From Desulfobulbus sp. (GTDB lineage Bacteria > Desulfobacterota > Desulfobulbia > Desulfobulbales > Desulfobulbaceae): a DNA stretch of 64,000 nt. The position numbers and the translations under genes were made by a program. This document shows positions 1,187 through 43,061 of this stretch, in pieces; positions within the stretch are counted from its first letter, which is position 1, and the number at the start of each line of letters is the position of its first letter. The DNA lies in the NCBI GenBank assembly GCA_009780825.1, contig WQZH01000001.1:310001-374000 (forward strand). The letters run 5' to 3'. The notes beneath the pieces are model-generated. The model had not been told where the DNA came from and made no database searches. It saw only the letters and a list, made by a program, of their open reading frames with translations.

Positions 1187-3082
1187 TTGCGCATATCTGT
1201 ATCTTCAGCGCCGCTTTGTTCGCAGAAAAACAATATTATTTCAATGCAATATAAGGTTGCACAAACCCGACTACTCCATATGAGAATATTGCCGACTCTG
1301 CCGTTCTACTGTCTCATCGTCCTTCTCTGTTGCTCCCTTTCCGCCTGTTCATCGCATAATAAATCAGCACTGCGCTCATCCGGAAACGAGGTGGCCATCA
1401 CCGACACCCCGGATGAAGAGGTCTCTTCGGCTGAACCGGAAGAAACCGCTGAAGAGGAGTTGGAAGCCCTCAATGCGCCCGGCGCCTGGGAATACGGCAT
1501 CAACAAGACCTATTCTCTGGAAAAGCTGGGCATTGACCCCGCCAAATACGATTTCCCCATTATGGTGAACAAGCAGGTCCTGTACTATCTTGAGCTGTTC
1601 CAGGGGAAGCAAAGGAATTATTTTACCCAATGGTTGGCCCGCTCCTCAATGTACCGGCCTTATATCGAAGCTGAACTGAAAAAGGCTGGCCTCCCTTCCG
1701 ACCTTGTCTTCCTGGCCATGATCGAATCGGGATACAATCCATCGGCTTATTCGCCGGCCAAAGCGTGCGGGCTGTGGCAATTCATCGAAGGCACTGGCGG
1801 CAGATACGGCCTCAGGATCGACTCCTGGGTTGACGAGCGTCGACAGCCGGAAAAGGCCACGAAAGCGGCGGTGCGTTATCTCTCCAATCTCCATACGCAG
1901 TTTGGCGACTGGTATCTTGCCGTGGCAGCGTATAATGCGGGCGAGAAAAAAATCGATACCGCCTTGAAGACAATAAATGCCAAAGATTTTTGGGAGATAG
2001 CGGCATCAGAAGGGATTTTCATGGAAACGAAGCGGTATGTGCCGAAGTTGATTGCCGCTATCATCATTGCCCGCAACCCGGAAAAATACGGCTTCACCGA
2101 CATTGCCTACAAGAAACCTCAAGAATACGAAACGATCGCGGTTCCAGGCGGGGTGAGCCTTGAAGCTGTGGTCGTCACCTCCAACACTACAATCAAGGAA
2201 TTGCGGTCCCTCAACAATGAATTAAAAAAAGGCCAAACCCCGCCCAAGCACGAGTATACCCTGCGTATCCCCTTGGGGACCAAAGAGTTGATCGCCGGCA
2301 ATCTTGACAAGCTCCATCCTGTGACCACGACCGTGTACACCACCCACACGGTTAAAAAAGATGAGACCTTGGATACCATCTGCAGCCTGTACAATATCAG
2401 CAAGACCACGCTCCTGAAAGCCAACAACCTGAGAACCGCGCAGTTGCCGAGAGGGTTGCGGCTCCAGATCCCTACGACCACGACCAAATATGTCCTTGCC
2501 AAGGACAGGCTGTCGCCTGAGGAGCGCGTGGCCAGGAACAACGCTAAGGGCAGCAAGCGGCAGCAGATGGTGAAACACACGCTGAAACCTAACGAAACCC
2601 TGGTTTCTGTGGCCAAACAATATCACGTTTCGCCGCAGCAGATACTGCACTGGAATAACATTTCCCACCAGGGCAAGGTGAAACAGGGCCAACACCTTGT
2701 GCTTTACCCTGCTCTTGCCAAACCGGTTTCTGCCGAGAAACCCGAAGGCGCAACCGATGCCGCCAAGATTGTCGTCGCCAAGAACATGGGAGGAGACAAG
2801 GCATCCGCTGCTGTTCCGGTGCTGGAGTCAGCCAAAAAACGAAGCGTTGCCAAGGCGCAGCCACAACCAGCCAGCGGGCAAAAATCTGCCGTGCCGTCAA
2901 AAGTGGTGGCCGCACAATCGATGAAGGACCAGCCTCCTACTTGGTACGTGGTGAAAAATGGAGACACCTTGGCAACCATCGCCAAAAAATTTCAATCTTC
3001 ACCCCAAAATATTCGAGACTGGAACAAGCTCAGCAGCAATGCTCTACAGACGGGTGATAAACTGATTGTCAAGAAAGGATAG
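1187..3082 (+). CDS. mltD: Membrane-bound lytic murein transglycosylase D-like protein with three LysM domains
   Basis: Cleaves the glycan backbone of peptidoglycan to 1,6-anhydro ends; predicted outer-membrane lipoprotein. A hydrophobic stretch ending in lipobox LSAC (C54 of the longest form) is followed by an acidic linker, an SLT lysozyme-like domain with AMIESGY (catalytic E180), GLWQFI and AYNAGE motifs, and three LysM domains near residues 390-435, 465-512 and 586-631. The longest frame opens with TTG at 1187, 8 nt after AAGGA at 1174-1178. ATG 1280 places the signal peptide exactly at the N-terminus and is biologically attractive but has no clear ribosome binding site. A strong terminator follows directly. 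Confidence 0.9.
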   Translation: MRISVSSAPLCSQKNNIISMQYKVAQTRLLHMRILPTLPFYCLIVLLCCSLSACSSHNKSALRSSGNEVAITDTPDEEVSSAEPEETAEEELEALNAPGAWEYGINKTYSLEKLGIDPAKYDFPIMVNKQVLYYLELFQGKQRNYFTQWLARSSMYRPYIEAELKKAGLPSDLVFLAMIESGYNPSAYSPAKACGLWQFIEGTGGRYGLRIDSWVDERRQPEKATKAAVRYLSNLHTQFGDWYLAVAAYNAGEKKIDTALKTINAKDFWEIAASEGIFMETKRYVPKLIAAIIIARNPEKYGFTDIAYKKPQEYETIAVPGGVSLEAVVVTSNTTIKELRSLNNELKKGQTPPKHEYTLRIPLGTKELIAGNLDKLHPVTTTVYTTHTVKKDETLDTICSLYNISKTTLLKANNLRTAQLPRGLRLQIPTTTTKYVLAKDRLSPEERVARNNAKGSKRQQMVKHTLKPNETLVSVAKQYHVSPQQILHWNNISHQGKVKQGQHLVLYPALAKPVSAEKPEGATDAAKIVVAKNMGGDKASAAVPVLESAKKRSVAKAQPQPASGQKSAVPSKVVAAQSMKDQPPTWYVVKNGDTLATIAKKFQSSPQNIRDWNKLSSNALQTGDKLIVKKG

Positions 3083-3089
3083 GCTTCAC

Positions 3090-3129
3090 CGGCAGAGGCC
3101 CCGGCTCTCCTTGGCCTCTGCCGTTTTTT
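3090..3129 (+). terminator. Rho-independent terminator after mltD
   Basis: An 11-bp perfect stem (cggcagaggcc at 3090-3100 with its complement at 3113-3123) encloses a 12-nt loop and is followed by six T. It starts 8 bases after the mltD stop. Confidence 0.93.
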
Positions 3130-3329
3130 CCGCAGCTTCTCTGCTCCTTCACTTTCCATTTCCTGCTCCGTTTCACCTGCTCAGCAGTTGGTGCGCGCCA
3201 GCCCCTCATCTCAAGAAACACAACCGCGCCGCAAATAGACGAGCAGGCCGCACCATCGCGGTTCGACACAGGCAAGCGTGCGGCTCCGCATCCCACATAT
3301 CCGATTGACCATGTATCAGCGTGACAGCA

Positions 3330-3734
3330 ATGAGTGAACAGGCCGACGAAACAGTCATCTTGACCAGTCAGGAGAAGAAAGCACTACGGAGTTTAGGGCA
3401 CCACCTTGAACCCATGGTCTATGTGGGCAAAGAAGGAATGTCCCCTGCTCTGCTCAACTCGCTGCAGGCCGCGCTCACGGCGCATGAACTGATCAAGATC
3501 AAAATCGGACAGAACTGTCCGGTGGAGCGGAACCAAGCGGGACAAGAGTTGACCAGAAGAACTGGAGCCGCCTTGGTTCAAGTCATTGGCCGGATGCTTC
3601 TTTTGTACCGGCCCAATCCAGATCTTCCCGAAGCGCGGCGGATATCGCTGACATCCGGCTCATCCATCCATCATTCGGAGAAGATTATGCAAAAAACAGG
3701 CGGCAGAACTGCCGCCCGGACCAAAAGGCCATGA
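3330..3734 (+). CDS. yhbY: YhbY-family (CRS1/YhbY, CRM domain) RNA-binding protein
   Basis: Small protein that associates with pre-50S ribosomal particles in bacteria where it has been studied. The CRM fold is visible throughout: an LTSQEKKALRSLGHHL start, the VYVGKEGMS loop (the family GxxG element), HELIKIKI, and VIGRMLLLYRPNP near the C-terminus. The last 25 residues form a basic tail rich in K, R, T and G that is longer than in the E. coli protein and may add RNA affinity (inference). ATG 3330 is used; an in-frame GTG lies at 3321 and neither has a good ribosome binding site. No operon partner is visible. Confidence 0.9.
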   Translation: MSEQADETVILTSQEKKALRSLGHHLEPMVYVGKEGMSPALLNSLQAALTAHELIKIKIGQNCPVERNQAGQELTRRTGAALVQVIGRMLLLYRPNPDLPEARRISLTSGSSIHHSEKIMQKTGGRTAARTKRP

Positions 3735-3757
3735 CCAGCCCTCTGCACGGGGGCTGG
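3735..3757. terminator. Hairpin between convergent genes, possible weak terminator
   Basis: A perfect 7-bp stem ccagccc/gggctgg with a 9-nt loop sits between the ends of yhbY (plus) and the GGCT-like gene (minus). Only a short broken T run (atgtttt) follows on the plus strand, so function as a terminator is uncertain. Confidence 0.35.
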
Positions 3758-3798
3758 CCAAATGTTTTCCAGGCTTGTCCCCGGCAAACGGAGATGAA

Positions 3799-4239
3799 TC
3801 AGAGATCGCCCCGGTCAAACAGGTCCCGGCGGTCCTCGACAAACCAGTGAATAAACTTCTCCAAACCATTTTGGAGGAAGCGGTCAAAATCCCAAGGGTC
3901 GTCCGACAGCATCTTGCGGCAATCGTTTCGAATCGCATAGACATAGGCATCTTCCTGCGTCCCGTCGGCCATGGTCACCTGGACAATAACCCGTTCATAC
4001 TTGTCGCCTTCAAAGTCATCGAGTTTTTCCATGGCCCGTTCGTCCAGCCCCCAATACAACTTGCCGGAAACAACCGAATCCGCCTCGCGGATGATGCCGG
4101 GATACTCGGAACCGCGAACGCGATACCGGGCCCAGTGACGCAAGGACGCCTCCTTGCCCTCATAGGACTGACCGGTGACGGCCTTCATCACCAGTGGCGA
4201 CTGCAACGTTCCATAACAAAATAATGCTGTTGTCTCCAT
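3799..4239 (-). CDS. Gamma-glutamylcyclotransferase-fold (AIG2-like) protein
   Basis: The 146-aa product has the fold of gamma-glutamylcyclotransferases, which cleave gamma-glutamyl groups to 5-oxoproline; the true substrate is unknown here. Seen are the substrate-loop motif FCYGTLQSP (residues 7-15), SGKLYWG in the middle, and the catalytic-glutamate segment DDFEGDKYERV, the typical AIG2/GGCT signature. The start is well supported: a purine-rich AGGGGGT lies a few bases before ATG 4239. It stands alone, convergent with yhbY. Family membership is clear; the reaction is not established. Confidence 0.85.
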   Translation of the reverse strand: METTALFCYGTLQSPLVMKAVTGQSYEGKEASLRHWARYRVRGSEYPGIIREADSVVSGKLYWGLDERAMEKLDDFEGDKYERVIVQVTMADGTQEDAYVYAIRNDCRKMLSDDPWDFDRFLQNGLEKFIHWFVEDRRDLFDRGDL

Positions 4240-6229: not shown

Positions 6230-7261
6230 ATGAACAACGAAGCCATCCCCCAGCGAAGCGTTGCGTTAGGTGGTTATTGGCGTCGCTTCGGAGCCTTTGC
6301 AATCGACATGCTCCTGCTCTCCGCTGTGGCTCATCTCATGGCTTGGGCATTCCGAGATGGTTTCATCCATCTCGGACCCCACGGACGGCTAGTTGGCGGG
6401 CTACTTTTCCTCGCCTATTTCCTGCCGCAGGATAGTGCTCTCAAGGGAGGGCAAACTCTCGGCAAGCGGCTGCTCGATTTAAAGGTCGTCGACACGAAGA
6501 ACAAGCCTCCAAGTGTTGTGCGTACTCTTGCACGTACCATGGTGCTGGCGGTTCCTGTTTTTTTGAACGGTTATTATTTTGCCTGCGACGGTTTTGCACC
6601 GTCGTGGTGGATGATGGCTCTCTCTTGTCTCCTTTCCCTAATCGTTTTTGGCAGCTTTGCCGCATTTGTGTATCTTTGGCTGTTTAACCGCAGGTCTAAA
6701 CAGCTTTTACACGACCTGGTAACAGGTACTGTTGTCGTCCGCGCATCCTCCGAGTCCGCGACTGTTGTCACCGCCCATGTCCATAAAATCATTGCTGGTG
6801 TACTGTGCATTTTGGGGATTGTTCCTGCTTTGGTAGGGACGAACCTGGCTAAACAAATAATTGGCCAAGGTTCCTTCCCGGGCATGGTTGCCGCTCAAAA
6901 AGAGATTCAAACACTTCCCGAAGTAACGCAGGCTTCTATAACCGAGCAACATGCTTTCATCACTGACAGCACTGGGACACGCGAAAATGTGGTGCTCATC
7001 GTTACAGTTACGCTCAATCAAAAATACGATGACCTGAAACCGGAGGCTATCCGCGTGGCCTCAAAAGCAATTTCAAGCCTGAAAATAGCGGATAATATGC
7101 GGGTATCGGTAATCGTATGCTATGGCTACGATCTAGGAATCGCGACGTCATCCTATAACATGAGAGAGACACACACTGCCAAGACCTGGAAGGAAGCGGC
7201 CTCCAGTGGACTACTGCCTGACGAGACTGCTGCCCCACCTTCGAAAACTGTTCCCATCTGA
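6230..7261 (+). CDS. RDD-family membrane protein with extra C-terminal domain
   Basis: Integral membrane protein of unknown function. The N-terminal RDD domain shows the typical YWRRFGAFAIDMLLL motif with its Arg and Asp, then about four hydrophobic helices, and TLGKRLLDLKVV, a hallmark of the family. A fifth helix (about residues 190-208) leads into a soluble C-terminal part of about 130 residues (EIQTLPEV, LIVTVTLNQKYDD) that I do not recognise. ATG 6230 follows GAGGGGAG by about 6 bases; an upstream TTG at 6215 lies inside that site and is rejected. By eye the gene is more AT-rich than glyA and the nuo genes on either side. It could be an acquired gene; function unknown. Confidence 0.75.
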   Translation: MNNEAIPQRSVALGGYWRRFGAFAIDMLLLSAVAHLMAWAFRDGFIHLGPHGRLVGGLLFLAYFLPQDSALKGGQTLGKRLLDLKVVDTKNKPPSVVRTLARTMVLAVPVFLNGYYFACDGFAPSWWMMALSCLLSLIVFGSFAAFVYLWLFNRRSKQLLHDLVTGTVVVRASSESATVVTAHVHKIIAGVLCILGIVPALVGTNLAKQIIGQGSFPGMVAAQKEIQTLPEVTQASITEQHAFITDSTGTRENVVLIVTVTLNQKYDDLKPEAIRVASKAISSLKIADNMRVSVIVCYGYDLGIATSSYNMRETHTAKTWKEAASSGLLPDETAAPPSKTVPI

Positions 7262-7546
7262 AATGGGAGTCATACTTCGGCCAGAGTATACGGTTTGAGA
7301 GCCATGTTCTCAATGTCTCCAAGACATTGGGTTGAGCACTACCGATATTGAGATACAGACCGATCTAGATGCCTGGATAGAACACGGAAAGAACCCGTCA
7401 GGGAGAATGTGCTGCTTACTAGTTTCACCCCTACATCCCTAAGCCCAGAGTGAAACTCTTCTAAAAGGTGATTGAAAGGATTTATCGGAGCAAAACCCCT
7501 CGAAATGACGAAGAAAAAACGTGTCAATATTCGGGAATAAACACAC
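7262..7546. other. Intergenic region between convergent RDD gene and nuoN
   Basis: No gene is seen. It contains a perfect 8-bp hairpin caatgtct/agacattg with a 3-nt loop at 7311-7329 and a second, wider inverted repeat agtttcac/gtgaaact (7421-7428 and 7450-7457). Neither is followed by a T run, so no intrinsic terminator can be called for the nuo operon. Confidence 0.5.
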
Positions 7547-8962
7547 TCAATACAAATTCTGCACCACCGTGCTGGCAAAATCGATGAACCTGGCGGGCAG
7601 GGCGCCAAGCAAGATAATGGCGAGCACCAGCACCACTCCGGTCAACTGAATGGCCGGATGCACATCAACCTGCGGCCGCTCTCCAGGTTCGGCGGTATAG
7701 GCCGCTTTCACCACGGAAAGATAATAGTAGAGAGCAATGGCCGTATTGATGGCGGCCAGACAGACGACCAGCACATGGTCGGCCCGCAGCGCCGAGGTCA
7801 GGATCATGAATTTGCCCATGAATCCGACAAAGGGCGGGATACCGGCCAGACCGAAGAGACCGACCGCCAGCACGAAGGCCAGCACCGGCTGTCTCTTGTA
7901 CAGGCCGTTGCAATCCTCGATTGTCACGTTTTCCCCTTCCTTCGAGACATTGCTGATCACCAGGAAACAGGCGAGATTCATCAGCACGTAACCGGCGATG
8001 TAGTAGATGGCGACCCCATACCCGTCGCGGTCGAGCGCAAGCAGACCCAAGATAATGAAACCGGCATGGGCAATGCCGGAAAAGCCGAGCATCCGCTTGA
8101 CGTCCTTCTGCATCAAGGCGCTGAGATTGCCGTAAAACATGGAGCAAAGCGCCAAGATCGCCATCAGCTCGATCAAAAACTCGGTATGACCGGTTGGCAC
8201 CGTGAGGAACCGGATCAAGAGGGCCACCGCGCCGAATTTCGGCAGCGTGGCGATGAAACCGGCGGTTTCGTTGGAAGCGCCCTGATAGACATCAGGCACC
8301 CAGAAATGCAAAGGGAAGGCCGCCAGCTTGTAGAAAAAACCGGCCAGAACCAGGAGCACCGCCACCGTCACCGTGGGCTGCAGTCCCCCCTTGGCGAGAA
8401 AGGCGATGATGTCCTTGAGATAGGTGGTGCCGGTGAGACCGAACAGCAGGCTCATGCCGTAGAGCATGAAGCCGGTCGCCATGACGCCAAAGAGCATATA
8501 CTTCATGCCCGCTTCCATCTGCGCGCGGCTGCCGGTGCGATCGTCGCGCATGGGGACCAGCAGATAGAGCGCAAAGGAGGAGAGTTCAAGCGAAATGAAG
8601 ATGGCTATCAGTTCCACCGAGCTGACCAGCATCATCAGGCCGAGGACGCTGAGCAACAAAAAGAGGTAATACTCCGGCCGGATATCCGGATCGATCCCCT
8701 TGAGGTTCTGGCCAAAGACCAGCAACAGGACCAGGGAGGATCCGATCAACGCCTTGAACAGTTGCGAGTACTGATCCACGACATACGCGCCGTAAAACAG
8801 GCTCCCCTGCGACTGAAACGCGAACAATGCGGCCACGCAGGTGGCAAAGCCGAAAACCATGGCCACCGCTTTCGCCATTTGGGCCGAAGGCGTCTTGCTC
8901 AGGCTGACGAGGAAGATCGCCAATGCACCGGCAGCCAGCACCAATTCAGGAAGAATAACCAT
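7547..8962 (-). CDS. nuoN: NADH-quinone oxidoreductase-type complex I, subunit N
   Basis: Proximal antiporter-like proton-channel subunit of the complex I membrane arm; last gene of the operon. The 471-aa product is almost wholly transmembrane. The conserved charged residues are present: Glu in FISLELSSF, the Lys of FFYKLAAFPLHFW (broken-helix TM7), and the Lys of IATLPKFGAV. ATG 8962 has only a weak AGG ahead of it. An 80-base gap separates it from nuoM, the widest in this cluster. No terminator is evident after it. Confidence 0.95.
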   Translation of the reverse strand: MVILPELVLAAGALAIFLVSLSKTPSAQMAKAVAMVFGFATCVAALFAFQSQGSLFYGAYVVDQYSQLFKALIGSSLVLLLVFGQNLKGIDPDIRPEYYLFLLLSVLGLMMLVSSVELIAIFISLELSSFALYLLVPMRDDRTGSRAQMEAGMKYMLFGVMATGFMLYGMSLLFGLTGTTYLKDIIAFLAKGGLQPTVTVAVLLVLAGFFYKLAAFPLHFWVPDVYQGASNETAGFIATLPKFGAVALLIRFLTVPTGHTEFLIELMAILALCSMFYGNLSALMQKDVKRMLGFSGIAHAGFIILGLLALDRDGYGVAIYYIAGYVLMNLACFLVISNVSKEGENVTIEDCNGLYKRQPVLAFVLAVGLFGLAGIPPFVGFMGKFMILTSALRADHVLVVCLAAINTAIALYYYLSVVKAAYTAEPGERPQVDVHPAIQLTGVVLVLAIILLGALPARFIDFASTVVQNLY

Positions 8963-40871: not shown

Positions 40872-43061
40872 CTACCGGCGCCGGACCTCGATCACATCGG
40901 GCATCTGCAGCAGATGCTGCTGCAAGGTGTGCAAATGTTTGATATGCGTCACTTCGAGCAGAACATCGAACTCGGCGATGTTCTCCACCGTGGTGCGGGC
41001 ATTCAGTTCGACGATATTGGCATCATCGACGCTAATGGCGGCACTGATGTCGGCCAACAAACTTTTTCGGTTTTCCGCCCTGATACGCAGCGCAACCCGA
41101 TACACGCCCTGCGGCGATCCAGACCAGGAGACTTCCAGCCAACGGTTAGGATCGACGGCCAGCAGGTTGGGGCAATCGGTGCGATGGATGGAGACGCCGG
41201 TGCCGGTGGTGATGAAGCCGATGATCGGATCGCCTGGAACCGGATGACAGCATTGACTCACCTTGACCAGTATGTCGTCGACACCATCGATGTCGATGGC
41301 GGTACGCCGGGCTGAGACAGCGGCGCGCTGCTCTTCGCCCGCGCGTTGGGCCCGCTCGACCATTTCCGCCATCCGCCGTTTTTCCTCGGTTTCGCGGAAT
41401 TCCTCGGGTTGCAGTGTCCGCAGCAGATGGGGCACGGTAATGGAGCCGTTGCCCACCCGGGTCAGCAACTCCTCCAGGGATTGGCAGTTGAGCTGCTTGA
41501 GCAGCAGGCGCAGCTGCCCGCTCTTGAGCAGCCGGTGAAAATTGATATCGTGCTTCTTCAGCTCACGCTCGCAGATTTCGCGGCCCAGCTTGAGCGACCG
41601 TTCCTTTTCCTCCCGCCTGAGATACTGGCGGATCCGGGTCCGGGCCCTGCTGGTCTTGACCAGTTGCAGCCAAGCACGGCGGGGATGCTGATTCTTCTGG
41701 GTCAGGATCTCGACGATGTCGCCGCTCTGCAGCTCATGTTTCAATTGGACGATATGGCCGTTGACCTTAGCACCGACACAGGTATCGCCGATCGCCGTAT
41801 GGATGGCGTAGGCAAAATCGATCGGCGTGCTACCCTTGGGCAGTTCCCGGACCTCGCCGGTGGGGGTCAGAGCGAAGACATCGGGCTCAAACAACTCGCC
41901 GCGCACGGTTTCCATGAACTCGTTCGGGTCTTCGACTTCCTGCAGGGACTGCACCAACCGCTTCAAATTCTTGAACAGCTTGGCATCGTTGCCGGTAATC
42001 TTCTGCCCTTCCTTGTAGGCCCAATGGGCGGCCACGCCCTCCTGAGCGACCCGGTCCATCTCCTCGGTCCGGATCTGAATCTCAATGAATTGACCCAGCG
42101 GGCCAGCCACCGTGGTGTGCAGCGACTGGTAGTTGTTCGATTTGGGCGCGCTGATCCAATCCTTGATCCGGCCGGGGACTGGCGTCCAGTCGGCATGGAT
42201 CGTACCCAATACCTGGTAGCACTCCTTGACCGTGCGGACGATGATACGGAAAGCCACCTTGTCATATACCCGCTCAATCGATATCTTCTGCTCCACCAAT
42301 TTCTTGTAGATCGAATAGATGTGCTTGGGCCGGCCGACCATCCGCACCGGTTCGATTTTATTCGCCCGGAGTTTGGCGGCCAAGACGCCGATCACTTCAT
42401 CAACATAGGCCTGGCGTTCGTCGGTGGTGCTCTCCAACTGGGCGGTCAGATCGGCATATTCCACCGGCATGAGATACTTGAAGGAGAGATCCTCCAACTC
42501 GCGCTTGATCCATTCGATCCCGATGCGGCTGGCCAGCGGAGCGTATAGATCCATTGTTTCCCTGGCCCTGATCCGCCGCTCCTCCTCATCGACCGCGTCG
42601 AGGTTGAGCATATCGTGCAGACGGTCGGCCAGCTTGACCAGGAGCACACGGATGTCCGCGCCCACGGCCAACAGCAGTTTCCGAAGGTTCTCCGCCTCAT
42701 GGGCCAGTTGGGAATTGTAGCGGACGTTGGTGATCCGGCTGGCACCATTGACGATATTGGCGATGGTCTCGCCGAACTTCTTCTTCAGCTCATCTAAGGT
42801 GGCGACCTGTTCCTTGATGGTGCCATGCAGCAGGCCGGCGACAATGGTGTCCAGGTCGAGCCTCATCGAGGCCAGGGTCGAAGCCACGGCCAGGGGATGA
42901 TCGATATACGACTCGCCGGTCACGTAGCGCTGCCCGGCGTGCCGTTCTTTGATGAATTCGTATGCCCTGATCAGTGGCTCCAGGTCAACCCCATGGAGGT
43001 AGGCCGAGGCAAGAGAGAGAAGATGCTTGATGTCTGACATGGCGCAATTGGATATGATCAT
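40872..43061 (-). CDS. relA: RelA/SpoT-family (p)ppGpp synthetase with degenerate hydrolase domain
   Basis: 729-aa stringent-response protein. Order: HD hydrolase-like domain (residues 30-160), synthetase (220-340), TGS (about 385-445), helical linker and C-terminal ACT. The synthetase is intact, with VYDKVAFRIIV, the RIKD form of the RxKD motif, and SNNYQSLHTTV. In the HD domain H55 and H79 remain, but the motif HDxxED reads HGTIKE (79-84), and the Asn of DRLHN is Asp (D150). The hydrolase is therefore predicted inactive. ATG 43061 is taken; ATG 43040 is in frame. It lies between proS and the Smr gene. Confidence 0.95.
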   Translation of the reverse strand: MIISNCAMSDIKHLLSLASAYLHGVDLEPLIRAYEFIKERHAGQRYVTGESYIDHPLAVASTLASMRLDLDTIVAGLLHGTIKEQVATLDELKKKFGETIANIVNGASRITNVRYNSQLAHEAENLRKLLLAVGADIRVLLVKLADRLHDMLNLDAVDEEERRIRARETMDLYAPLASRIGIEWIKRELEDLSFKYLMPVEYADLTAQLESTTDERQAYVDEVIGVLAAKLRANKIEPVRMVGRPKHIYSIYKKLVEQKISIERVYDKVAFRIIVRTVKECYQVLGTIHADWTPVPGRIKDWISAPKSNNYQSLHTTVAGPLGQFIEIQIRTEEMDRVAQEGVAAHWAYKEGQKITGNDAKLFKNLKRLVQSLQEVEDPNEFMETVRGELFEPDVFALTPTGEVRELPKGSTPIDFAYAIHTAIGDTCVGAKVNGHIVQLKHELQSGDIVEILTQKNQHPRRAWLQLVKTSRARTRIRQYLRREEKERSLKLGREICERELKKHDINFHRLLKSGQLRLLLKQLNCQSLEELLTRVGNGSITVPHLLRTLQPEEFRETEEKRRMAEMVERAQRAGEEQRAAVSARRTAIDIDGVDDILVKVSQCCHPVPGDPIIGFITTGTGVSIHRTDCPNLLAVDPNRWLEVSWSGSPQGVYRVALRIRAENRKSLLADISAAISVDDANIVELNARTTVENIAEFDVLLEVTHIKHLHTLQQHLLQMPDVIEVRRR

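Follow-up and report, generated by a model that had tools for sequence, protein, structure and literature searches.

A Rel orthologue with an altered hydrolase site

The window analysed here is a 64,000-nucleotide stretch of a Desulfobulbus sp. genome, from the class Desulfobulbia (hereafter, the class) of the phylum Desulfobacterota (hereafter, the phylum). On its minus strand, at 40872..43061, lies an open reading frame of 729 aa that encodes a long RSH, the Rel orthologue, here called SYN and predicted to be synthetase-only. SYN scores 710 bits against the general RelA/SpoT model TIGR00691 (cut-off 499), and the HD, SYNTH, TGS, helical/zinc-finger and ACT domains of a long RSH follow one another in order. 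In Pfam terms these are HD_4 (residues 33-182, 42516..42965, 149.8 bits), RelA_SpoT (PF04607, residues 243-353, 42003..42335), TGS (residues 397-454, 41700..41873), RelA_AH_RIS (the helical and zinc-finger, or AH/RIS, region, residues 466-640, 41142..41666) and ACT_4 (residues 651-728, 40878..41111), all on the minus strand. Residues are numbered below as in B. subtilis Rel/RelSeq unless A. baumannii SpoT is named.

The original prediction for this gene was that the HDxxED motif of the hydrolase had become HGTIKE and the Asn of DRLHN had become Asp. Both readings are correct. The complement of 42810..42827 reads CATGGCACCATCAAGGAA, which is HGTIKE (residues 79-84), and the codon at 42612-42614 is GAT, within DRLHD (42612..42626). 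Two further changes had not been mentioned: by alignment, the Arg of the RKS motif (R44) is a Tyr (Tyr46, codon 42924..42926), and the next Lys is a Val. The equivalents of His53, His77 and Asp144 are retained. The synthetase motifs were said to be intact and of the RxKD form, and indeed every synthetase residue looked at agrees with B. subtilis Rel. GRPKHIYS (42312..42335) keeps its Arg and Lys, YDKVAFRI (42243..42266) contains the catalytic Asp aligned with D264 (codon 42261-42263), and EIQIRT (42066..42083) contains the catalytic Glu numbered E324 in the B. subtilis enzyme (codon 42081-42083). YQSLHTT is at 42111..42131, and RIKD, at 42159..42170, is the RxKD motif of Rel/SpoT rather than the RelA form. 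SYN accordingly carries the synthetase signature of a bifunctional Rel[HS], RxKD included, and lacks the HDxxED plus DRLHN signature of its hydrolase.

The changed positions are among those at which hydrolysis is reported to be lost. In RelSeq, R44Q and D78A each abolish it (PMC13299517), and in A. baumannii SpoT so does substitution of Y51, E82, D83 or N147 (PMC9974481). SYN is altered at the equivalents of R44, D78, E82, D83 and N147 and keeps that of Y51. Because these five equivalents are changed, the hydrolase activity of SYN has very likely been lost, and the proposal that the protein makes and does not remove (p)ppGpp holds as far as sequence can tell. In RelSeq, His53, His77 and Asp144 are the Mn2+ ligands of the unoccupied pocket (PMC13299517); as all three are kept, the SYN pseudo-hydrolase may still bind metal.

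A second long RSH with the reciprocal pattern

A cell with such a Rel was predicted to need another hydrolase, and the genome search supplies one. In the assembly (2.75 Mb in 56 contigs; completeness rating 100%), PF04607 finds two matches and PF13328 also two, in the same two genes. One is SYN. The other, which we call HYD, is a long RSH on the plus strand of contig C50, outside the window (L109:4022-6124). Counted from the Met that we chose, HYD has 701 aa. Its hydrolase motifs, HDTVED and DRLHN, are intact, and its synthetase positions D264, R295, N306 and E324 are Ile, Ser, Ser and Leu. HYD falls under the cut-off of both the general model TIGR00691 (367 of 499 bits) and the SpoT equivalog PRK11092 (272 of 947 bits). 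We also considered a small alarmone hydrolase in this genome and rejected it, since PF13328 matches only the two long RSHs. On C50, HYD is flanked by an RNase R-like gene on the minus strand and, on the other side, by a tyrosine-integrase-like gene (1644-3851 and 6408-7640; names from reading of the open reading frames alone), and no tRNA was found on this contig.

SYN and HYD across the class

The two paralogues were told apart by BLAST against both, together with their motifs, which gave a clean separation; HD_4 bit scores were dropped for this purpose. The 55 genomes of the order, the window's included, gave 56 SYN-type rows, four of them halves of split genes, and 50 HYD-type rows. For SYN we added 20 further class genes, giving 76 rows, counted at each site over those with a letter there. 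D78 is replaced in 74/75 (68 by Gly), E81 in 74/75 (62 by Lys), D82 in 73/75 (59 by Glu) and N148 in 74/74 (70 by Asp). In the same rows the Mn ligands are kept at H53 in 74/74, H77 in 75/75 and D144 in 73/74, and so are the synthetase residues D264 (73/73), R295 (73/73) and E324 (73/74). The sole row with both D78 and E81, that of G042 (HDLLER), has lost D82 and N148. The one E324 exception is half of a frameshifted gene: in G027 (L011), a single-contig genome, SYN is split over two frames near residue 323, by error or by a real disruption.

HYD is the mirror image. H53, H77, D78, E81, D82, D144 and N148 are intact in 50/50 rows, D264 is lost in 50/50 and E324 in the 49/49 that have a letter there, so that all 50 (one of them without a letter at E324) show the residues of a hydrolase-only long RSH. 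At E<1e-100, 182 of 192 class genomes have a match to HYD and 183 to SYN; 175 have both, eight SYN only, seven HYD only and two neither. One of the SYN-only genomes, G156, carries an HYD fragment at a contig edge, and the remaining seven are draft assemblies, none of them closed. No HYD was found in either of the two genomes of genus g54 (90% and 82% complete), and SYN is degenerate in both.

HYD-type proteins also appear among the matches listed in a scan of named genomes, in Desulfopila sp. IMCC35008 and a Desulforhopalus MAG, both of the order Desulfobulbales, and both sequences nest within the class HYD clade of our tree. That scan looked for patterns with the hydrolase motif in its intact form (ADRLHN, LHD..ED); its matches are no fair sample of hydrolase states and did not serve as a control. 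A gene from BP5.bin10 (L195), labelled Myxococcota, lies inside the same clade; this MAG is possibly mislabelled. Separately, in some class genomes HD_4 matches fall within open frames that measure 467, 456 and 471 aa (L105, on C23 of G009; C174 of G163; C112 of G156), lengths that suit neither a long RSH nor a standard small hydrolase in any obvious way.

Both proteins are under constraint and are predicted to keep both catalytic folds

In comparisons with three relatives, the SYN hydrolase domain has a dN/dS of 0.125-0.153, which is purifying selection. The same holds for every tested domain of SYN and HYD (0.07-0.16, three relatives each). Purifying selection on all tested domains implies that the dead ones are kept for a reason, be it folding, allostery or binding. 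Together with the conservation across the class, it also rules out that the altered site of SYN reflects chance, a pseudogene or a sequencing error.

The AlphaFold models of SYN and HYD retain both catalytic folds, the SYN HD_4 domain included. The HYD model has a pTM of 0.74 (pLDDT 88) and the SYN model a pTM of 0.47, a difference that may hint, weakly, at a more compact enzyme in HYD. In comparison with PDB structures, the catalytic regions of the two models match Rel and SpoT; the whole HYD chain does not superpose on the compact SpoT 7qpr (rmsd ~25 Angstrom; 9.7 over 403 residues). SYN aligns structurally with B. subtilis Rel 6yxa at 39% identity. The Core linker, taken between B. subtilis positions 335 and 385, has a median of 43 residues in HYD and 49 in both SYN and intact Rel; a shorter Core linker has been linked to hydrolase specialisation (PMC9974481).

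Partner and damaged site go together in the phylum

We drew 247 genomes of the phylum, 236 of them outside the class, and searched 151 of the 236 with SYN. The choice was not random: preference went to the best HYD matches in the first batch (43) and to genomes with multiple matches in the second (80), and the third held leftovers and some further genomes (28). The hydrolase site of the main Rel could be read in 144 of the 151, in some cases from split or contig-cut genes, and counts over these 144 include related, non-independent genomes. Besides the main Rel, 23 of the 144 genomes, from eight families, carry another long RSH that has lost D264 and E324; each of these 23 partners keeps all seven hydrolase residues, the pattern of a hydrolase-only long RSH. 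The main Rel of every one of the 23 partner genomes has lost at least one of H53, H77, D78, E81, D82, D144 and N148. In the other 121 genomes no hydrolase-only long RSH was found, and all seven Rel residues are intact. Partner presence and a damaged Rel site are thus coupled with no mismatch in the 144 outside-class genomes. A table of 21 class and 114 other genomes has 44 with a partner and a damaged site, 91 without a partner and with an intact site, and again no mismatch. Among those 114 no family mixes the two states, eight families having the partner and 66 lacking it. The batch of 28 added 21 readable Rel genes, all intact and all without a partner. Aligned across Desulfobacterota, a comparison named with the original prediction, the hydrolase site of SYN is degenerate class-wide and that of the partnerless Rels read elsewhere is intact.

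The damage is slight in some outside genomes: D82E in G346, N148D in G422 and E81A in G424. Loss of activity is less sure for these three Rels, each with one residue of seven changed. G231 had looked like a mismatch and was rejected as one, its gene being frameshifted and the hydrolase fragment intact. G340 and G321 gave fragments outside the hydrolase site only. Neither long RSH protein found a match in five genomes rated 91-100% complete (G226, G244, G246, G398 and G419), an apparent absence of RSH or a gap. Two others, G435 (L354) and G252 (L350), have an intact Rel and a second RSH of another kind, in frames of 468 and 504 aa; its synthetase residues are intact and its hydrolase part is not alignable.

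Three kinds of partner and the number of origins

The partners are of three kinds. The first is HYD itself, which occurs in the class and also in three families outside it (f48, f81 and f98), in the latter at 34-40% identity to HYD of the window genome; together these form a single clade (support 99). The second is found in f32, f56 and f89. The third, whose open frames run to about 480-510 aa, is that of f71 and f90. In the tree both of these kinds sit on long branches, and how they relate to each other is uncertain.

For the Rel side, trees were built from the synthetase and later domains with the hydrolase domain left out, and without RelA rows. The class SYN proteins form one clade that groups with intact Rels (100 and 96 in one tree); in a second tree the clade has support of 100/100 and its grouping with intact Rels 97/85 and 98/93. 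The Rels of f48/f81/f98, of f32/f56/f89 and of f71/f90 form separate clades. On the best tree, partner presence and site damage both require four changes, which fall at the same places; the starred branches force only two. An independent-pairs test finds two pairs on the starred branches, too few for significance. The residues that replace the originals vary between the split groups and within them, which fits continuing decay after constraint was lost. Our best reading of these sequence-based trees is four origins of the split, and the safe reading is two. The split seems to have arisen separately from RelA/SpoT, the comparable pair of E. coli, and probably more than once among these sulfate-reducing relatives.

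It could instead be that the HYD-type split arose once, before the class and f48/f81/f98 parted, and that the adjacent intact Rels are misplaced in the tree. The single HYD clade suits such an event, and an AU test does not reject a tree with class SYN and the f48/f81/f98 Rels as one clade (p 0.279). Moreover, N148 is altered in every lettered row of both groups (D 70, L 2, F 1 and V 1 in the class; D 4, E 3, R 1 and V 1 in f48/f81/f98), so a shared first hit at this position is possible. No identical substitution, however, is common to all rows of both groups, D78 is still present in the class branch G042 and in 5/9 rows of f48/f81/f98, and the grouping of class SYN with intact Rels has the support values given above. 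A single HYD-type origin would also leave f32/f56/f89 and f71/f90, with their other partners, unexplained. We regard it as improbable, though it deserves to be carried along beside separate origins.

A probable division of labour between two long RSHs

The residues, their conservation and the coupling with the partner lead us to hold with considerable confidence that SYN is a Rel turned dedicated synthetase, with a folded, dead pseudo-hydrolase, and that hydrolysis is the task of HYD, whose synthetase would be dead. In the cell, SYN would make (p)ppGpp and HYD would remove it. The C-terminal parts of Rel and RelA sense starved ribosomes. Since SYN retains the synthetase, TGS, zinc-finger and ACT regions, it is likely the starvation-triggered source of (p)ppGpp, and it would keep the ribosome-linked starvation sensing of Rel. 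HYD would be the likely sink, working like the hydrolase-only SpoT of Moraxellaceae. Gain of a partner would have freed Rel from keeping a hydrolase of its own, and the site would then have decayed, probably on several occasions and by differing routes.

The dead domain of SYN could be more than a relic. A pseudo-hydrolase rebuilt as a regulatory domain, for example a module that binds alarmone or a partner and controls the synthetase, would account for the class-wide conserved substitutions and for a dN/dS (0.125-0.153) near that of the rest of the protein. Structural coupling alone could account for the same constraint, and RelA is reported to retain an inactive HD domain likewise (PMC3153485), which leaves a regulatory role a minority view in our judgement. 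A more elaborate version adds the history: three or four separate splits, with three unrelated-looking partners and the Rel site lost each time, after which the site in the class would have been rebuilt as a pseudo-hydrolase that has conserved HG-x2-KE / DRLHD motifs and serves a new function in regulation. This we advance tentatively, as something that may prove right and probably will not. Much weaker is the idea that bifunctionality was altered rather than lost, SYN still hydrolysing weakly or conditionally by means of the kept His53, His77 and Asp144 together with the newly acquired Lys and Glu. The kept Mn ligands, the conservation of the HG-x2-KE plus DRLHD replacement itself and the purifying selection on the domain would suit it. 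Kept ligands and selection are, however, also expected if the domain serves folding or allostery, and R44, D78, E81, D82 and N148 are all changed, where single changes are reported to abolish activity; we consider such residual hydrolysis very unlikely. That the split is the RelA/SpoT event of Beta- and Gammaproteobacteria, inherited or transferred, can be set aside as hardly credible: the division of labour is the same and SYN and RelA both have a dead HD domain, but SYN lies under the curated cut-offs for RelA (PRK10872, 512 of 728 bits) and SpoT (579 of 947 bits), keeps RxKD and groups with the intact Rels of its own phylum (in trees without RelA rows), and HYD is a separate long branch apart from the proteobacterial SpoT rows.

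Relation to known RSH systems

Beta- and Gammaproteobacteria are the best-known setting of the RelA/SpoT split. What we describe would be a complete, probably recurrent separation of synthesis from hydrolysis, with one long RSH for each, outside the groups where this has been described: a RelA/SpoT-like division of labour in an order of sulfate reducers that, on the best tree, appeared several further times in the phylum. Such lineages could serve as natural replicates in the study of what makes a bifunctional alarmone switch break in two, which step comes first and how dead domains are re-used. A close parallel is RelA[hS]/SpoT in the complete version that Moraxellaceae have, RelA + SpoT[Hs], which likewise pairs a synthesis-only long RSH with a pseudo-HD domain and a hydrolysis-only one with a pseudo-SYNTH domain (PMC9974481, PMC3153485), and in which the hydrolase again has the shorter Core linker (PMC9974481). 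The present pair differs from RelA/SpoT in its lineage and, on present trees, its separate origin, in the RxKD motif and Mn ligands that SYN keeps, in the distance of HYD from the SpoT cut-off and in the several kinds of partner within one phylum.

In 2011 Atkinson et al. (PMC3153485) gave the name RshD to the second long RSHs that occur in Desulfotalea psychrophila, Syntrophobacter fumaroxidans, Pelobacter carbinolicus and Magnetococcus. In the available portion of that paper, RshD and the delta-proteobacterial Rel are both labelled [HS], or bifunctional, with no functional division given. HYD, the commonest partner, is probably the RshD of Desulfotalea and Syntrophobacter, a match that we make by the similarity of the organisms and by the one clade in both analyses. 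Judged by the catalytic residues, it is probably a mistake to describe both proteins of these organisms as bifunctional. In the open-access literature searched we found no description of the SYN/HYD split in these bacteria. RshB of Bacteroidetes and the plant and algal RSHs are also second-copy long RSHs, and in some of them the HD domain is decaying or divergent; they differ in that the same available text describes no reciprocal hydrolase-only long partner for them (PMC3153485). Bifunctional Rel[HS], such as B. subtilis Rel (6yxa), is the orthologue of SYN and shares its full domain layout, and differs in the hydrolase site that SYN has lost. The small alarmone hydrolases (Mesh1/SAH) share the HD_4 hydrolase fold of HYD, which differs in being a long RSH with a pseudo-SYNTH domain and TGS.

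Two RSHs labelled as belonging to other groups also depart from the bifunctional pattern. In a Gammaproteobacteria bacterium (isolate COS2_bin_1, L267), an RSH with intact hydrolase residues has, as aligned, R241V, K243T, R295E and E324K, with D264 kept; it is possibly a hydrolase-only SpoT. The Rel of an uncultured Clostridium MAG (L225) has, as aligned, HDxxNF in place of HDxxED, and its synthetase residues are intact.
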